Shown in pieces: positions 24,380-47,984 of a stretch of 64,000 nucleotides of DNA (position 1 is the stretch's first letter; each line of letters opens with the position of its first letter). Both the position numbers and the translations under genes were made by a program. The notes under the pieces are model-generated. The model saw only the letters and a list, made by a program, of their open reading frames with translations, was not told the DNA's origin and made no database searches. This stretch comes from Paracoccaceae bacterium (GTDB taxonomy: Bacteria; Pseudomonadota; Alphaproteobacteria; Rhodobacterales; Rhodobacteraceae): contig JAFGTV010000006.1 of assembly GCA_016938875.1 (NCBI GenBank), positions 1 to 64,000 of the forward strand, written 5' to 3'.

Positions 24380-24712
24380 CTAGCGGTCGAAAAAGTCCTC
24401 TTCGACCTCGGCCGGGTTGATGCCGATCGCCTCCAGCCCGGCCTCCAGATAGTCGGGAAACAGCGGCATGCCGACCAGGTAATCCTCGGTGGGAACGGTC
24501 GCCTCTGCCTTGGCGGTCTCGATCGCCTCTTCCAGATCGTCGGCATCGAAGGTTTCGCGCCCGATCCAGGTCAGCGCCACCAGGCTGGCCTTTTCGTCCT
24601 CGTTCATCGCCCCGATAAACGCCCGCAACTCGGGCTCTGCCAAGGCCTTTTCACGGGCCTGAAAGATGACTTGCACCACCTTGCGCGGGCTGATTTGCAG
24701 CAGCTCTTCCAT
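24380..24712 (-). CDS. DUF3775 domain protein
   Basis: This 110-residue acidic protein begins MEELLQISPRKVVQVIFQAR and contains MNEDEKASLVALTWIGRETF and YLVGMPLFPDYLEAGLEAIG, the conserved blocks of DUF3775. It has no signal peptide or membrane segment, so it is cytosolic. GGAGGAG is about 7 nt before the ATG at 24712, which excludes longer upstream starts. It stands alone between the sigma-E-linked operon (68 bp upstream, same strand) and a terminator, and it could receive read-through from that operon. Function unknown. Confidence 0.85.
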   Translation of the reverse strand: MEELLQISPRKVVQVIFQAREKALAEPELRAFIGAMNEDEKASLVALTWIGRETFDADDLEEAIETAKAEATVPTEDYLVGMPLFPDYLEAGLEAIGINPAEVEEDFFDR

Positions 24713-24780: not shown

Positions 24781-25521
24781 TCACTTGTTCGGCGCGAATA
24801 TCCGGTAATAGGCCCAATCGGGCAGGAATTGCGACAGCCGGAACACCCACGAAAACAGCGTCGGGAAACTGCGCGCGAACCGATCGGTCATCATGTGCTC
24901 GACGATCTCATGGGCGGCGGCCTCGGGTTCCATGATGAAGGGCATGGAAAAGTCGTTCTTGTCGGTCAACCGGGTGCGGATAAAGCCCGGGTTCACCAGT
25001 TGAACCTTGACCCCGGTGCCGCGCAGATCGGCATACATGCTTTCGGCCAGCGACATCACCCCGGCCTTGGACGCGCAATAGCCGATGGCGCCGGGCAACC
25101 CGCGAAACCCCGACAGGCTGCCGGTGATCACGATATGGCCCCGGTCGCGGTCGACGAAACGCGGCACGACCTGCCCCAGAACCCGCGCGGCCCCGGTCAG
25201 GTTGATATCGCACATCGCCTCGACCTGCTCGGCGTCCCAGCCTTGGGCCGCTTGCGGCCAGTAGACACCGGCCAGAAACACCAGCCCGTCGATCTGCCCC
25301 ACCTGCTGGGCGGCCAGGCGCACCGCCGCCCCATCCGAAATATCCATCGGAACCACCGTGGCACGGCCGGGCAATGTGGCGGCCAGCTCTTCCAGCCGCT
25401 CTGCGCTGCGCGCGCTCAGCACCAGTTCGACGCCCAGCGCGCTCAGCCGTTCGGCCAGGGCGCGGCCCAACCCCTCGCTGGCGCCGACCAGCCAGTAGCG
25501 TTTGCCGATCCAATCCGTCAT
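24781..25521 (-). CDS. Short-chain dehydrogenase/reductase of the RpoE-linked operon
   Basis: This 246-residue classical SDR has the cofactor motif GASEGLGRA, the NNAG-equivalent FLAGVYW, catalytic Ser in ITGSLSG and catalytic YCASK. It is the last gene of the five-gene operon divergent from rpoE-chrR. Its ATG overlaps the DUF3833 stop as ATGA. The same gene family order is known next to rpoE-chrR in Rhodobacter sphaeroides (from memory, the RSP1087-1091 group). Substrate unknown; a lipid or fatty-acid role is inferred from the operon. Confidence 0.88.
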   Translation of the reverse strand: MTDWIGKRYWLVGASEGLGRALAERLSALGVELVLSARSAERLEELAATLPGRATVVPMDISDGAAVRLAAQQVGQIDGLVFLAGVYWPQAAQGWDAEQVEAMCDINLTGAARVLGQVVPRFVDRDRGHIVITGSLSGFRGLPGAIGYCASKAGVMSLAESMYADLRGTGVKVQLVNPGFIRTRLTDKNDFSMPFIMEPEAAAHEIVEHMMTDRFARSFPTLFSWVFRLSQFLPDWAYYRIFAPNK

Positions 25522-26081
25522 GCTGCCACCTTGGGGCGCATGGTGGCCACCAGTTCGGCCACGGGGATGCCGAATTTGCGGAACTGGCTGCGATTCATGA
25601 TCGCGCCGTTTTCCATCAGGTACATCCAGTCGGTCGCGTCCAGAACATGGCCGCCCGAATCCTCGGGCAGGCGGATGCGATAGCGCAGATGCACCCCCGA
25701 CCCCTTTTGCATGCCATGACCCGGCCCGACCAGATCGGGGGCCTCGGCGCGGATCGCCCCGTCATTGCCCAGGGTAAAGGTCCAGCAGCGGCTTTGGGTG
25801 GCGCCGCTGTCATAGCGAAACTCCTCGGTCATGGTGCCGGTATTGCCGTCCCACCGGGCCTCCATATCCGCGACAAAGCGCGAGGTGACCCGCCCCATCG
25901 GCCCGTAAACCACACCCTCGCACAGGATCGGACCATCCAGGTGTTTGCGCAGGTCGAACTGCGGGCCGGCGGTTGCGTAATCCTCGGCCTTCTGGGCCTG
26001 AAAGCCCAGGGTGCGGGATTTCAGCACCACCAGTCCCAGGGTCGCCAGCGCGCCCAGAACAAATGCCAGGATGGGTGTCAT
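25518..26081 (-). CDS. DUF3833 membrane-anchored protein
   Basis: This 187-residue protein of the DUF3833 family is recognisable from QFDLRKHLDGPILCEGVVYG, FRYDSGATQSRCWTF and the C-terminal DWMYLMENGAIMNRSQFRKF. An N-terminal hydrophobic helix (residues about 4-22) probably anchors it with the domain outside the cytoplasm. Unlike some relatives it has no lipobox cysteine. The fold resembles lipocalin-like barrels, hence a lipid-binding role is possible but unproven. Start and stop overlap its neighbours by 4 nt on both sides. Confidence 0.85.
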   Translation of the reverse strand: MTPILAFVLGALATLGLVVLKSRTLGFQAQKAEDYATAGPQFDLRKHLDGPILCEGVVYGPMGRVTSRFVADMEARWDGNTGTMTEEFRYDSGATQSRCWTFTLGNDGAIRAEAPDLVGPGHGMQKGSGVHLRYRIRLPEDSGGHVLDATDWMYLMENGAIMNRSQFRKFGIPVAELVATMRPKVAA

Positions 26082-27310
26082 CGGATTGCCTCCCGTGTCA
26101 GCGGCGTCGCGGCCAAAAGCGCGATCGCCATGAGTTTCAGCGCGCAGGGCACCAGCGCGTAAAGCACGCTGAGCATGACCAGCGCGGCCTGCGGATTGTC
26201 GCCCCCTGCCGTGAACCCGGACCGCTGCAACAGCGGCAAAAGGGTCACAGCGGCAAAGGCCAGGGTGAATTTCGAAACGAACGACCACAGCCCAAAGGCC
26301 TGGCCCGCATTCGGGGCCACATGGGCCATGCGCCCGGCAAAGATCGCCGGCAACAGCGTCATGTCCGCCCCAAGCGTCGCGCCCGATGCCAGACAGATCA
26401 CCGCAAAGGGCAGCGTATCCCCCGCCCCCAGCGTCGCGGCAAAACCAAAGGCGGCGATCGACAGAACCATCGCGCCCAGCAGCACCCGCTTTTCGCCCCA
26501 GACCTGCGCGGCCCGGCCCCATACCGGCGCAGAGGCCGCAGCGGACAGGAAAAACAGCAGCAAAAGCGGCCCCTCCCACCCCGGCGCGTCCAGACGGCTT
26601 TCGACGAAGAACAGGAAAAGCGTCGATGTCACCGCCACCGGCGTTGCATTAAGCAGCGCCAGCAGCAGCAGGCGGCGCGCGATCGGATCGGCCAGCACGA
26701 CGCGGAAACTGCCCGGCTCGGGGCGCGTCGGCAGCGCCCATTCCCGGCGCATCCCCAGAACCGCCAACACCGCCAGCCCCGCGAACCCCGCCGCAAACAG
26801 CGCAAAGGGCGATCCGCTGACCGACATCAGAACGGTCGGCGCCACCGCCGCCAGGCTGACCCCCAAAAGCGCCCCGGTTTCGCGCCAGGTGGCCAGGCGA
26901 ACATGACCGCCTGCCCCCATCCGCGCGGCCCGCGCCACGCCCTGGGCATAAAAGGTGATCGTCAGAAAGCTGAACCCGGTAAAGAGCCCCGTCAGCGTCA
27001 TCGCGAACCACAACAGCGGTGCGACAGGCGGCGTCACCGCAAAGAGCCCCAGCATCGAGACCGCCATCAACGCCGCACCCAGCCCCACCGCCAGTCCGCG
27101 CGCACGGCGCAGACGTTCCGACAGCCAGCCCAGCGCGGGATCCTGCACCACGTCGAACAGCCGCAACCCGAACAGCACGGCTCCCAACGCCGCCAGGCTG
27201 ACACCGTATTCATCCACGTAGAACTTGGGCGCGTGGATATAGATCGGCAGGCCGGCCGAGGCCAGCAATGCCGCAAACAGCGCATATCCGGGCAGGGGCG
27301 CTGCCGCCAT
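26078..27310 (-). CDS. MFS transporter of the RpoE-linked operon
   Basis: This 410-residue transporter has about 12 hydrophobic segments and resembles the MFS_2/GPH-like type, with the loop motif DVVQDPALGWLSERLRRAR after the second helix. The ATG at 27310 shares one base with the DUF1365 stop (TGATG), so it is preferred over any longer frame. Position between DUF1365 and DUF3833 genes matches the Rhodobacter singlet-oxygen operon. Its substrate is unknown. A lipid precursor or stress metabolite would fit the operon. Confidence 0.87.
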   Translation of the reverse strand: MAAAPLPGYALFAALLASAGLPIYIHAPKFYVDEYGVSLAALGAVLFGLRLFDVVQDPALGWLSERLRRARGLAVGLGAALMAVSMLGLFAVTPPVAPLLWFAMTLTGLFTGFSFLTITFYAQGVARAARMGAGGHVRLATWRETGALLGVSLAAVAPTVLMSVSGSPFALFAAGFAGLAVLAVLGMRREWALPTRPEPGSFRVVLADPIARRLLLLALLNATPVAVTSTLFLFFVESRLDAPGWEGPLLLLFFLSAAASAPVWGRAAQVWGEKRVLLGAMVLSIAAFGFAATLGAGDTLPFAVICLASGATLGADMTLLPAIFAGRMAHVAPNAGQAFGLWSFVSKFTLAFAAVTLLPLLQRSGFTAGGDNPQAALVMLSVLYALVPCALKLMAIALLAATPLTREAIR

Positions 27311-28071
27311 CAGGTCACCTCGTCGACCGGCGGCTCGGGACGGGGACGGTATTTCGCGCCCTTGAGAAACAGCCACAGCGCATGCCAGTGGATCAACGCA
27401 ACGACCCGGCGCGACCCGAACGGCCGACGCAGCAAGGCGCGCAGGATGGTCCAATTCGTCAGCCTGCGACGCGGGCCGGTCAGGGTGGCATAAAGCCCCT
27501 CTTCGCCATGGCTGAAATCAATCCAGACCCCCACCTTGTCGGGCCGGATGTCAAAGCGGAACCGATAGCCCCCCGCGATCGGCTGAAACGGCGAGACGTG
27601 AAAGATCTTGGTCGCGGTCATCAGGTCCGACGGCTCTATCGGGCGCTGGTCGGCGTGACGGCACAGATAGGAATGCCGATCCCCAAAGGTGTTGTTCACC
27701 TCGGCAATCACCACGCGCAGCGTGTCATCCTTGCCGTAACACAGCCAGAAACTGACCGGGTTGAACTCATGCCCCAGCACGCGCGGCAGGGTCAGCAACT
27801 CGATCCGGCCCTTGGCCGAATGCAGATCGTGGGCCGCCAACACCTCGCGCGCCCAGGTCACCCCCCGCCCCTGACCGCGTGGGCCGCCATGATCGCGGTC
27901 CAGCACCGACATGATATTGGTGTGATTGAACGAAAACAGCCGCGGCCGGCGCAACACCGGGGCCTCGGGGTTCAGCAGGACGTAATCGACCGTATAGCGG
28001 AACGTATGTTCCACCTTGCCGCGCCGGGCGTGATAGGTCGCGCCGCGCACATATTCTACATTTGCGGTCAT
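27310..28071 (-). CDS. DUF1365 family protein
   Basis: This 253-residue protein contains the DUF1365 hallmarks: ATYHARRGKVEHTFRYTVDY at the start, LPRVLGHEFNPVSFWLCYG and EVNNTFGDRHSY in the middle, and the KIFHVSPFQPIAGGYRFRFD block. Members nearly always sit next to a flavin amine-oxidase-like protein and often a cyclopropane fatty acid synthase, suggesting fatty-acid modification. Here the flavoprotein is directly upstream (ATGA overlap), but no cyclopropane synthase gene is in the operon. Biochemical activity is not established to my knowledge. Confidence 0.9.
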   Translation of the reverse strand: MTANVEYVRGATYHARRGKVEHTFRYTVDYVLLNPEAPVLRRPRLFSFNHTNIMSVLDRDHGGPRGQGRGVTWAREVLAAHDLHSAKGRIELLTLPRVLGHEFNPVSFWLCYGKDDTLRVVIAEVNNTFGDRHSYLCRHADQRPIEPSDLMTATKIFHVSPFQPIAGGYRFRFDIRPDKVGVWIDFSHGEEGLYATLTGPRRRLTNWTILRALLRRPFGSRRVVALIHWHALWLFLKGAKYRPRPEPPVDEVT

Positions 28072-29363
28072 GCCGCCACCGTTTCGGACTGGCGCCGTTT
28101 CATGGCCTCGACCACGTCCACCGCGCTGGACAGCCCGTCCTCATGGAAACCATTTTTCATCCAGGCCCCGCAGAACCAGGTGCGCTTGGCCCCGTTCATG
28201 TCCCGCAGCACGGCCTGCGCGTTCAGCGCGTTCAGGTCATAGACCGGGTGACGAAAGGTTGCCGTGTCATAGATCAAATACTCGCGGATCGGCCGCTGGG
28301 AGTTCAGCGTCACGAACATCGGATCGGCCTCGGGGATCGGTTGCAGCGAGTTCATCCAATAGGTCAGGTCGATCCGGTCGCTGTCCTTGCCGTGATCCTC
28401 GGTATAGACCCAGCTGGCCCAGGCGGCGCGGCGTTTGGGCATGATCGCGGTATCGGCGTGCAGAACGGCGGTGTTGGGCTGATAGCGCACGGCACCCAGG
28501 GCCGCGGCTTCCTCGGGCGTGGGGTCGGCCAGCAGCGCCAGCGTGTCGTCGGAATGGGTGGCAAAGACCACCTCGTCGAACTGTTCCCACGCGCCACCCT
28601 TGGCCTTAACCTCGACCCCGTCCGCGCCCCGGCGCACGGCGTCCACGGGGGTGCCGGTGCGGATCGCCACGCCGCGCCCCAGCAGCGCCTGTTCCAGCCG
28701 CCGGACATATTCGACCGAGCCGCCCTGAACCGTGTGCCACTGGTGCTGGCCCTTGTGGCTGAGCAATGCGTGGTTTTCGAAAAACCGGATCATCGCCTGC
28801 GCCGGGAAATCCAGGATGCCCTGGGTCGGCGTGGACCAGATCGCCCCTGACAGCGGCAACAGGTAACGGTCGCGGAACCAGTCGCCAGTGCCCAGCGCGG
28901 CCAGAAACTCGCCGATGGTCATCGCCGGATCGCGCGCCACCTTCAGGGCGTTTGCGTTGAACTTCATCACGTCGCGCAGCATGCCCAGGAATTTCGGGCT
29001 GAACGCGTTGGAGGGCTGCGCAAAGACCGATTTCAGATCCCGCAGCCCGTATTCGAAAGCGCCCCCGTTCAACGAGGCGCCAAAGCTCATGTCGGACTCG
29101 GCGATCGGCACGTCCAACTCGCGAAACAGCCGTGTCATGTGCGGATAGTTCACATAGTTGAACACGATGAACCCGGTATCGACCGGCTGATCCCCATTGC
29201 GACCCGCCATCACCGTGCGTGCATGCCCGCCAAGGCGCGGCTCGGCCTCGAACAGGGTGACGCGGTGATCGGTGCCCAGAAAATACGCGGCCCCCAGGCC
29301 CGAAATCCCCGCACCGATGACGGCGATGCGCCGGGGGGCGCCCGCTGCGGTCTCGAATGGCAT
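28068..29363 (-). CDS. FAD-dependent amine-oxidase-like oxidoreductase, first gene of the RpoE-linked operon
   Basis: This 431-residue flavoprotein has a Rossmann FAD-binding N-terminus (RIAVIGAGISGLGAAYFLG), the FEAEPRLGGHARTV ribose-binding segment, a VDTGFIVFNYVNYPHM block and C-terminal FCGAWMKNGFHEDGLSSA. It is related to protoporphyrinogen/amine oxidases and desaturases. Its closest known context is the sigma-E target next to rpoE-chrR in R. sphaeroides. There, members of this operon are linked to singlet-oxygen-induced fatty acid changes and ChrR turnover (established work, recalled without lookup). A promoter matching rpoE's own lies 60 bp upstream on this strand. The exact reaction is inferred, not visible. 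Confidence 0.88.
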   Translation of the reverse strand: MPFETAAGAPRRIAVIGAGISGLGAAYFLGTDHRVTLFEAEPRLGGHARTVMAGRNGDQPVDTGFIVFNYVNYPHMTRLFRELDVPIAESDMSFGASLNGGAFEYGLRDLKSVFAQPSNAFSPKFLGMLRDVMKFNANALKVARDPAMTIGEFLAALGTGDWFRDRYLLPLSGAIWSTPTQGILDFPAQAMIRFFENHALLSHKGQHQWHTVQGGSVEYVRRLEQALLGRGVAIRTGTPVDAVRRGADGVEVKAKGGAWEQFDEVVFATHSDDTLALLADPTPEEAAALGAVRYQPNTAVLHADTAIMPKRRAAWASWVYTEDHGKDSDRIDLTYWMNSLQPIPEADPMFVTLNSQRPIREYLIYDTATFRHPVYDLNALNAQAVLRDMNGAKRTWFCGAWMKNGFHEDGLSSAVDVVEAMKRRQSETVAA

Positions 29364-29422
29364 ATGGTCGTGCTCCTGATCTTGCTGCCCTTGGGATATG
29401 GCCTATCTGACCGCGCATATCC

Positions 29423-29451
29423 AGTTACGTGTGGCGCTGCGTTGCAGATCA
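29423..29451 (-). promoter_or_regulatory. Candidate RpoE (sigma-E) promoter for the leftward five-gene operon
   Basis: On the minus strand, TGATCT (29451-29446) is followed by exactly 18 bp and TAACT (29427-29423). The architecture equals that of the rightward promoter 15 bp away and resembles the R. sphaeroides sigma-E pattern (TGATC at -35, TA-rich -10). It lies 60-88 bp before the flavoprotein start. Confidence 0.7.
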
Positions 29452-29465
29452 ATTGAAATTTCCGG

Positions 29466-29494
29466 TGATCCGATCCGGCCCGGGCCGCGTATCA
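29466..29494 (+). promoter_or_regulatory. Candidate autoregulated RpoE (sigma-E) promoter for rpoE-chrR
   Basis: TGATCC (29466-29471) is followed by exactly 18 bp and TATCA (29490-29494). TGATCC is the -35 hexamer I recall for the R. sphaeroides singlet-oxygen sigma factor. The predicted transcript start is near 29500, leaving a leader of about 75-105 nt before rpoE. Confidence 0.72.
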
Positions 29495-29577
29495 CGATTA
29501 TGTTGACCGGAAATTGCGCCACACAGGAATCGGATGCGACCCCGCCGGGCATTCTCTATGCTACCGGGGATGCTCAA

Positions 29578-30153
29578 ATGTTTCCAACCGCCAGGGCAAA
29601 GGCCGTGACACAACATGCAACGTCCGACGCGCGCTGGGTGCGCCTGGTCGAGCGGGTCAAATCCGACAAGGATCAGGCCGCGTTCGCAGCGCTATTCGCC
29701 CATTTCGCACCGCGGGTTAAGGCGTTCTTGATGAAATCCGGGGCCGACGCGGCCCTTGCAGAGGAGTGCGCACAAGAGGTGATGGTGACGCTTTGGAACA
29801 AGGCGCATCTGTTCGACCCCGAGCGGGCCAGCGTGGCGACATGGGTGTTCACCATCGCGCGCAATCGCAGGATCGATGCGCTGCGCAAGCAGCGCCGCCC
29901 CGAGCCCGAGGAACTGACCTGGGGCCCGGAGCACGAACCAGAACAGTCCGAAACCATCGCCTTGCAACAGGAAAGCGAACAGTTGGGCCGGGCGCTGGCC
30001 GCCCTGCCCGAAAATCAGCGCATGCTGATCGAACGGGCCTATTTCGGCGATCTCAGCCACAGCGAAATCGCAGCCGAGACCGGACTGCCGCTGGGCACGA
30101 TCAAATCGCGGATACGGCTGGCCCTGGATCGGCTGCGCCACGAAATGAAGTGA
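29578..30153 (+). CDS. rpoE: RpoE, ECF sigma factor of the singlet-oxygen (ChrR-controlled) type
   Basis: This 191-residue ECF sigma factor has region 2 (FAALFAHFAPRVKAFLMKSG ... CAQEVMVTLWNKAHLFDP, ATWVFTIARNRRID) and region 4 (LPENQRMLIERAYFGDLSHS, GTIKSRIRLALDRLR). The partner immediately downstream is ChrR, which defines the group: in R. sphaeroides this sigma factor directs the response to singlet oxygen. The ATG at 29578 has GGGGA at 7 nt. A GTG at 29605 with AGGG at 8 nt is a nearly equal alternative and would give 182 residues. A promoter of its own recognition type precedes it, implying autoregulation. Confidence 0.92.
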   Translation: MFPTARAKAVTQHATSDARWVRLVERVKSDKDQAAFAALFAHFAPRVKAFLMKSGADAALAEECAQEVMVTLWNKAHLFDPERASVATWVFTIARNRRIDALRKQRRPEPEELTWGPEHEPEQSETIALQQESEQLGRALAALPENQRMLIERAYFGDLSHSEIAAETGLPLGTIKSRIRLALDRLRHEMK

Positions 30154-30155
30154 AT

Positions 30156-30812
30156 ATGACCATGACAAACATAAAGCACCACCTGACCGACGACCTGCTG
30201 ATGTCCTATGCCGCCGGCAACCTGCCCGAGGCGTTCAGCCTGGTCGTGGCCACCCATGTTTCGCTGTGCGACGAGTGCCGCGCGCGCCTGGCCAGCTATG
30301 AGGCCGTCGGCGGCGCCGTGCTGTACGAGGCACCGTGCTGTGCCATGTCCGAGGACAGCCTTGCCGCGACCCTGCTGCGGATCGCCGAGGCGCCGCAGGA
30401 TGCCGTCCCCGCCCGGGCCACTGGCGCGCCAGGCCTGTTTCCCCAACCGCTGCGCGACTATGTCGGCGGCGATCTGGATGCGGTGCAGTGGAAATCGGTC
30501 GGCGGCAAGGTGCGCCAGACGGTGCTGCCCACCTCGAAAGAGGCCAGTGTGCGTCTGCTGCATATTCCGGCGGGCACCGCGATCCCCGATCACGGCCATC
30601 ACGGGATGGAATTGACCCTGGTGCTACAAGGGGCGTTTCAGGACGAGGGCGAGCGGTTCGGCCGCGGCGATGTCGAGGTCGCCGGCGAGGATCTGGAACA
30701 CACCCCCGTTGCGACCCCCGGCGACGACTGCATCTGCCTGGCCGCAACCGATGCCCCGCTGAAGTTCAACGGGCTGATACCGCGCATGGCGCAACCCTTC
30801 CTGGGGATCTGA
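30156..30812 (+). CDS. chrR: ChrR, zinc-dependent anti-sigma factor with C-terminal cupin domain
   Basis: This 218-residue anti-sigma factor holds RpoE inactive until singlet oxygen is present. The N-terminal zinc-binding domain has histidines near the start (KHHLTDDLL) and the H-x3-C-x2-C motif in THVSLCDEC. The C-terminal cupin has H-x-H-x3-E in PDHGHHGMELTL and the later histidine in DLEHTP. These correspond one-to-one to the zinc ligands known for R. sphaeroides ChrR (His6, His31, Cys35, Cys38; His141, His143, Glu147, His177), so both metal sites look intact. It starts 2 nt after the rpoE stop; a second in-frame ATG at 30162 is possible. Confidence 0.95.
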   Translation: MTMTNIKHHLTDDLLMSYAAGNLPEAFSLVVATHVSLCDECRARLASYEAVGGAVLYEAPCCAMSEDSLAATLLRIAEAPQDAVPARATGAPGLFPQPLRDYVGGDLDAVQWKSVGGKVRQTVLPTSKEASVRLLHIPAGTAIPDHGHHGMELTLVLQGAFQDEGERFGRGDVEVAGEDLEHTPVATPGDDCICLAATDAPLKFNGLIPRMAQPFLGI

Positions 30813-46437: not shown

Positions 46438-47984
46438 TCGCGTCCCTCCCACATCGCGCGCACGGCGGATGAGACCGTCCTGGCATCCGCCGTGATCCAA
46501 CGCGCGGCAACCACCTGATCGGGGCGCACCAGGTAAAGTGCCCCGGGGGCATCGCCCAGGAAACGCTCGCGCACCAGGGCGTTTACCTGCATCTCGACCA
46601 CCGGGAGATCCAGCCCGCCAGGCACGGCACAGTTCACCGCCAACAGCGCCGCGTCGGTGCCCAACCTGTTCAGCAGCCAGCCGTTGCCCTGCGGCACGTC
46701 CGGCACCACCGCGCCGGGGCGCGTGGCGGCCGGCAACATCGGATCGTCGGCGCCGGTGCTGGCATAGATGCACGGCGCCGACAGGCGGCCGGAATTGACC
46801 CAGCCGCGGGCAAATTCGGTCTTGCCCGCCAGCGCCAGCACCTGGTCGCGAAACAGCCGCTCCATCCCCGGCGAAGGTGTCATGAACCGGGTGGCGCGGG
46901 TCGAGTGGCGGATATCCTCGTCCGCGGCCGCTACCCGCTCGCGGTTATAGCTATCCAGCAGGCCGCGCGGTGCGCGTCCGGCCAGCACGGCGGCCAGTTT
47001 CCAGCCCAGGTTATCCACGTCCTGTAGCCCGCTATTGGCGCCGCGCGCGCCAAAGGGCGACACCACATGGGCGCTGTCACCCAGAAAGATCACCCGGTCA
47101 TGCACAAAATCGCGCAACCGGCGGCACTGGAAGGTATAGACCGAAACCCACTCCAACTCGAAATCGGGGCCTACGACCTTTTCGATGCGTGGGATCACGT
47201 TCTCGGGCTTTTTCTCTTCCTCGGGGTCGGCATCCCATCCCAGTTGCAAGTCGATGCGATAGATGTCGTCGGCCTGCCGATGCAGCAGCGCCGACTGGCC
47301 GTCATGAAAGGTCGGCTCGAACCAGAACCAGCGTTCGGCGGGGAAATCGGCCTTCATCTCGATATCCGCGATCAGGAAGCGTTCATCGAACCGCTCGCCC
47401 TCAAAATCCAGATCCATCATCGCCCGGATGGTCGAGCGCCCGCCATCGCAGGCCAGCACGAAATCGGCACTCAGCCCGTATTGGCCATCGGGGGTCCTGA
47501 TCGTGACATGCGCGCCGTCGCCGCTTTGGTCGATGCCGATCACCCGGTTGCGAAACCGCAGATCGACCAACGGATCGGCCAGGGCACGCTCGGCCAGGAA
47601 TTCCTCGATGTAGTATTGCTGAATGTTGATAAAGGGCGGCAGGTGCTGACCCGGCTCTGCCGCCAGGTCAAAGCTGAACACCTCGTCATCGCCATGACAG
47701 GTGCGGCCAACGCTCCAGGTTTCGCCCTTGTCCAGCACCTTGTCGGCAATGCCCAGCCGCGTGAACAATTCCAGGCTGCGCCGCGACCAGCAGATCGCGC
47801 GCGACCCCATGGCGACCACATCGTTGTCATCCAGCAGCACCGAGGGAACGCCACGCGTCGCCAGATCCAGCGCCATCGCCAGACCGACAGGCCCCGCGCC
47901 CACGATGATCACCTTGTGACGCGGCTCGGGTCCACTCAGGCCCGGGGGGGCGACATAGGGAAAGGGCTTATAGTCATAGGGCAT
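46434..47984 (-). CDS. FAD-dependent aromatic hydroxylase-like monooxygenase
   Basis: This 516-residue flavoprotein has the N-terminal dinucleotide motif VIIVGAGPVGLAMALDLATR, the DG motif ADFVLACDGGRSTIRAM and the GD motif RVIFLGDSAHVVSPFGARG. A C-terminal thioredoxin-like dimerisation domain follows. It belongs with MhpA/phenol hydroxylase-type class A monooxygenases. Its substrate is unknown, presumably a phenolic or acidic aromatic compound. The ATG at 47984 shares its A with the stop of the upstream small membrane gene (TGATG), and GGGAG is 8 nt before it. The unit is preceded by a palindromic operator and a divergent MarR gene, which probably controls it. Confidence 0.9.
   Translation of the reverse strand: MPYDYKPFPYVAPPGLSGPEPRHKVIIVGAGPVGLAMALDLATRGVPSVLLDDNDVVAMGSRAICWSRRSLELFTRLGIADKVLDKGETWSVGRTCHGDDEVFSFDLAAEPGQHLPPFINIQQYYIEEFLAERALADPLVDLRFRNRVIGIDQSGDGAHVTIRTPDGQYGLSADFVLACDGGRSTIRAMMDLDFEGERFDERFLIADIEMKADFPAERWFWFEPTFHDGQSALLHRQADDIYRIDLQLGWDADPEEEKKPENVIPRIEKVVGPDFELEWVSVYTFQCRRLRDFVHDRVIFLGDSAHVVSPFGARGANSGLQDVDNLGWKLAAVLAGRAPRGLLDSYNRERVAAADEDIRHSTRATRFMTPSPGMERLFRDQVLALAGKTEFARGWVNSGRLSAPCIYASTGADDPMLPAATRPGAVVPDVPQGNGWLLNRLGTDAALLAVNCAVPGGLDLPVVEMQVNALVRERFLGDAPGALYLVRPDQVVAARWITADARTVSSAVRAMWEGRE

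Follow-up and report, generated by a model that had tools for sequence, protein, structure and literature searches.

The region between rpoE and ufaD in a Rhodovulum bacterium is very probably the control region of an ECF11 (RpoE-ChrR) singlet-oxygen system, in which paired RpoE promoters provide both autoregulation and induction of the ufaD operon with no required spacing between them. The region lies in a 64,000-nucleotide stretch of contig JAFGTV010000006.1 (assembly GCA_016938875.1; hereafter, the window). Because this arrangement has been published for R. sphaeroides, the window adds a further example of it, and the main interpretation is supported as correct and as already known for the model species. 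What appears to be new, from comparison of upstream sequences, is a change of the ufaD promoter within Rhodovulum.

Results

Two divergent RpoE-type promoters between rpoE and ufaD

Direct reading and a pattern search both recovered two divergent, exact matches to TGATCY-N16-CGTA within 29423-29494 (Table 1). One, with TGATCC, precedes rpoE; the other, with TGATCT, precedes ufaD and matches at all nine scored bases. The first-pass annotation had placed back-to-back promoters here, written as TGATCC-N18-TATCA toward rpoE and TGATCT-N18-TAACT toward the flavoprotein gene; these are the same boxes, TGATCC-N16-CGTA from 29466 to 29491 on the plus strand and TGATCT-N16-CGTA from 29451 down to 29426 on the minus strand, and the 14 bp between the −35 elements and the equal 18-bp spacers to the TA were also described correctly. 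Its identification of TGATCC as the −35 element of R. sphaeroides RpoE agrees with the published TGATCC-based motif, which reads TGATCC(N15)GCGTA in the excerpt available from PMC5036791 and TGATCC-N16-CGTA in that from PMC5507510. Since the CG before the TA, which the annotation had omitted, is part of the published motif, both sites are stronger than it had proposed.

Table 1. Features of the rpoE/ufaD region, in window coordinates.
Feature	Position	Strand	Remarks
RpoE-type promoter of rpoE-chrR	29466..29494	+	−35 TGATCC 29466-29471, −10 CGTA 29488-29491
RpoE-type promoter of ufaD operon	29423..29451	-	−35 TGATCT 29451-29446, −10 CGTA 29429-29426
Gap between both −35 hexamers	29452..29465	.	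14 bp; length not conserved in relatives
Second element before ufaD, window variant TGGATA-N16-CCATAT	29396..29423	-	from comparison of Rhodovulum upstream regions
rpoE, ECF sigma factor	29578..30153	+	start uncertain; alternative GTG at 29605
chrR, zinc anti-sigma factor with cupin domain	30156..30812	+	TIGR02451, PF12973, PDB 2z2s_B
ufaD homologue, flavin amine oxidoreductase, RSP_1091 counterpart	28068..29363	-	assigned from position and family
ufaO homologue, DUF1365, RSP_1090 counterpart	27310..28071	-	assigned by position; 4-bp overlap with ufaD
MFS transporter, RSP_1089 position	26078..27310	-	
DUF3833 protein, RSP_1088 position	25518..26081	-	
Short-chain dehydrogenase, RSP_1087 position	24781..25521	-	

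The window contains three exact matches to TGATCY-N16-CGTA, compared with a mean of 0.10 in shuffled sequence (0 of 100 shuffles reached three); the third, at 47172-47197, falls within a long open reading frame. Across the whole draft genome, TGATC-N17-CGTA was found 15 times and its backward-read control 0 times, and 8 of these 15 sites, lying within open frames longer than 150 codons on the same strand, are probably not promoters.

Several other genes of the genome also lie behind sites of this type. An rpoHII homologue, named by eye, follows an exact RpoE-type promoter (L076, G000:C49:136102), as does each of a pair of paralogous peptides some 48-56 residues long (L077, G000:C50:59069; L081, G000:C67:88293), which both begin MDIIGPLMLGTIGFVVAFAYINMRQTE and by eye resemble single-span membrane proteins. 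The gene after the L077 peptide resembles one for a SOUL-type haem-binding protein. A FolE2-like gene, again recognized by eye, lies downstream of a TGATCT-N16-CGTA site (L068, G000:C2:373113).

Gene content of the two operons

The product of rpoE had R. sphaeroides RpoE as its top PDB match (2q1z_A, E 2.2e-80; runner-up 2.8e-23), as expected for the ECF sigma factor of an ECF11 system. The adjacent ChrR carries the zinc-binding anti-sigma and cupin domains of such a system: it scored 220.7 bits against TIGR02451 (cut-off 124.5), also matched PF12973, and aligned with PDB 2z2s_B at an E value of 2.6e-75, so that the two proteins have their matches in the solved R. sphaeroides complex. By a count made by eye, the eight zinc-ligand residues named in the part of PMC6852236 available to us are identical in the ChrR alignment.

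Divergent from rpoE, five leftward genes with overlapping starts and stops follow the order ufaD-ufaO-MFS-DUF3833-SDR, which fits that of the RSP_1091-1087 operon. A DUF3775 gene (24380-24712, minus strand) lies 68 bp beyond these five genes on the same strand and may be a sixth member of the operon.

Conservation of the two promoters in syntenic regions

We collected regions upstream of UfaD homologues from relatives and from the family, together with those of the 80 best-ranking named genome records among the matches listed. We dropped duplicates and loci lacking a recognized forward rpoE (9 of 158, 11 of 238 and, in the hold-out set, 18 of 100, from which another 6 were discarded as duplicates), which left 275 unique regions. 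The rpoE-side promoter was exact in 268 of these and within one mismatch in 273, and only one region had none within two mismatches; its −35 element read TGATCC in 268 of 274. On the ufaD side, 253 of the 275 regions had an N16-CGTA site with at most two mismatches, compared with a frequency of 0.017 for the same regions shuffled by two-base blocks; the filter demanded CGTA on this side, so the constancy of that box is no evidence. The alignment across syntenic genomes that the first-pass annotation had proposed, naming absence of the two TGATC boxes as an outcome that would count against it, thus found both boxes conserved over the 275 unique regions. The sites, gene content, synteny and conservation of the window region are in this way demonstrated at the level of sequence.

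The two promoters nevertheless evolve differently, the rpoE side being nearly invariant and the ufaD side frequently degenerate or absent. Exact ufaD-side promoters made up 106 of the 253, and in 144 of the 253 the −35 element began with a dinucleotide other than TG (TCATCC in 78, TAATCC in 22, GCATCC in 22, and others), a deviation frequent in genera other than Rhodovulum. All but one of these deviant elements (143 of 144) fell in a single clade of 192 regions, in which the rpoE side remains TGATCC. When each region was labeled by the state of its ufaD-side site (TG, deviant, or none), the tree required 32 parsimony changes, compared with 103 on average over 200 shuffles; therefore, the deviation follows the tree. 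The deviant −35 element may set the operon at a weaker level than the autoregulated sigma gene.

The ufaD-side promoter in Rhodovulum

Among 16 Rhodovulum genomes, the window species included, the rpoE-side site was exact in all 16, but the ufaD-side motif was within one mismatch in only four (the window species, L016, L019 and L020). It was two mismatches off in L015, which retains only the −35 element, and three off in 11 genomes; L016 reads CCTA instead of CGTA. The 12 genomes with no site within one mismatch have TGGAC-N16-CCATAT in its place. In the general form TGGA[C/T]-N16/17-CCATAT, this second element was present before ufaD in 13 of 16 Rhodovulum, including the window species, and in 0 of 258 other regions and 0 of 500 shuffles; it begins 58-60 nt before the start codon of ufaD, immediately downstream of the position of the RpoE −10 box. 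Before rpoHII, 12 of 16 genomes carry an exact RpoE-type site and 15 of 16 carry one with at most one mismatch; only G004 departs from this. Because the rpoE and rpoHII sites, the other targets compared across the genus, are kept, the loss is located on the ufaD side. The deep branches of the Rhodovulum tree have weak support (22, 26, 38 and 53), too little for a count of independent losses.

Of the 16, the window species alone combines an exact ufaD-side RpoE site with the element. Because the ufaD-side site is beyond one mismatch in 12 of 16 genomes, its function cannot be derived from conservation at the genus level, and we considered that the leftward RpoE promoter of the window species might be a relic, with ufaD driven mainly by TGGATA-N16-CCATAT, much as the element presumably drives it in the 12 genomes lacking the RpoE site. 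Although the near-constant position of the element in 13 Rhodovulum, its absence from the 258 other regions and the partial decay of the RpoE site in L015 and L016 are consistent with this idea, in the window it is the RpoE site that is exact at the nine scored bases and the second element that is deviant (TGGAT, with spacing one longer), and we regard a relic as improbable. The second element could have the role of a basal promoter, and it is an RpoE promoter of ufaD that we favor in the window species.

To characterize the element, we compared it with aligned groES, clpB and hslV upstream regions from the 16 Rhodovulum genomes. The groES promoter of the window genome and several others, TTGACA-N15-CCTATCT, agrees in spacing with the element written as TGGACA-N15-CCATATC. 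RpoHI needs TTG in a promoter tested in the excerpted text of PMC3441632, and we did not adopt an RpoH identity for the element, which reads TGG at that position. A sigma70 reading, TGGACA-N18-TATCCA, is possible from the sequence; a simple sigma70 scan of window positions 29360-29620 returned no site at the thresholds used. Genome-wide, CTGGANA-N15-CCATAT gave 111 sites with at most two mismatches compared with 57 for a control, a pattern that the window's own element, having N16, cannot match; none of the 111 was exact, and no regulon of the element is evident.

Distance between the −35 elements

The first-pass annotation had described promoters of identical architecture with −35 elements 14 bp apart, and had proposed that the polymerases could compete or cooperate through these closely placed regions. 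Gaps between the −35 elements spanned 4 to 370 bp among the first 182 usable loci; in 71 hold-out loci the range was 4 to 136 bp, with one further value of 917. Neither a conserved distance nor a conserved helical phase was found. A unit that depends on spacing has in its favor that a 14-bp gap would bring two sigma region 4 sites close together. Moreover, 71 of the first 182 loci had gaps outside the main peak, and these gaps shared a phase at 10.5 bp (z 3.73, mean cos 0.313), with p values from simulations on the tree of 0 to 0.032 over 16 settings, or 0 to 0.133 for those runs whose main peak was similar. However, thinning the loci to 35 clusters lowered z to 1.32, a comparison of independent sister pairs, 37 of 91 being informative, yielded p 0.205, and the hold-out, for which the phasing test was fixed before new genera were fetched, went in the opposite direction (z −3.38 and mean cos −0.322 for 55 loci). 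Helical phasing, which had been prompted by the gap histogram, was thus unsupported by the sister pairs and contradicted by the hold-out, and we rejected it. Given the variable gap and the failed phasing test, a conserved interaction between the polymerases is unsupported, and neither the 14-bp unit nor cooperation was borne out; we consider a spacing-dependent unit very unlikely. Steric competition at the 14-bp gap is possible as a putative effect.

In 22 of 71 hold-out regions the −35 hexamers were 4-8 bp apart, a gap at which two polymerases could hardly bind simultaneously; this excess may derive from one clade.

That the TGATC boxes are functionless chance matches is practically untenable: one-mismatch sites are common, their number in the window not being significant (7 versus a shuffle mean of 3.75, reached by 8 of 100 shuffles), but exact sites are rare and the boxes recur in 273 and 253 of the 275 regions, the leftward one at 0.017 in shuffles.

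Discussion

In R. sphaeroides, rpoE-chrR (RSP_1092-1093) and RSP_1091-1087 are both RpoE-dependent and a feedback loop has been proposed, according to the portions available of PMC3818230 and PMC7380195. The window resembles this locus in gene families, gene order, neighborhood and an RpoE-type promoter before each operon, and differs from it in the additional element before ufaD. The proposal that divergent RpoE promoters combine autoregulation with operon induction therefore matches the published R. sphaeroides arrangement, with boxes conserved in syntenic genomes. UfaD and UfaO of R. sphaeroides synthesize furan fatty acids; under singlet oxygen, both are required if RpoE is to be fully activated and ChrR turned over. 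A core regulon shared across species was reportedly described by Dufour et al. in 2008 (J Mol Biol 383:713).

More distant systems are alike in part. In Shewanella oneidensis, rpoE2-chrR (SO_1986-1985) and the neighbor SO_1987 have RpoE2-dependent promoters (PMC4336711, in excerpt), likely a similar paired arrangement with the orientation taken from the locus numbers; the neighbor is, however, a Lon-domain gene and not ufaD. The RpoE-ChrR type pair of Pseudomonas syringae, PSPTO_1043-1042, has the same consensus, TGATCC-N16-CGTA, but the RSP_1091 and RSP_1090 homologues belong to an induced locus, PSPTO_1121-1114, other than that of the sigma gene (PMC5507510, in excerpt).

By analogy with R. 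sphaeroides, from which transcription by RpoE, the inducing signal, the enzyme functions and the feedback are carried over, inactivation of ChrR would free RpoE to bring RNA polymerase to the two divergent promoters. The rightward promoter would raise rpoE-chrR, which amounts to autoregulation, and the leftward promoter would raise ufaD-ufaO and three more genes; because full activation of RpoE and turnover of ChrR depend on UfaD and UfaO in R. sphaeroides, the leftward promoter would close a positive loop. Both promoters would act side by side without a required spacing. The paired promoters would thus make the supply of UfaD and UfaO rise with RpoE; R. sphaeroides requires both proteins to remove the inhibitor ChrR.

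For most Rhodovulum we suggest, with slightly less confidence than doubt, that ufaD-ufaO has come off direct RpoE control, its promoter replaced by an element that another factor, of sigma70 or RpoH type, would read, while the RpoE promoters of rpoE and rpoHII were kept; the window species, which has the two elements in tandem, would be an intermediate. Among the matches listed for divergent transcription and for losses in the family, consisting of titles and abstract openings with subscription papers mostly outside, no such promoter replacement was reported, and those listed for singlet oxygen, RpoE and ChrR, again with subscription papers mostly outside, did not mention Rhodovulum. If true, the positive feedback loop of the R. 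sphaeroides type would be opened in these species, or turned into a relay via RpoHII, and a genus seemingly without the RpoE promoter of one arm would offer a natural test of whether the positive loop matters in light stress.
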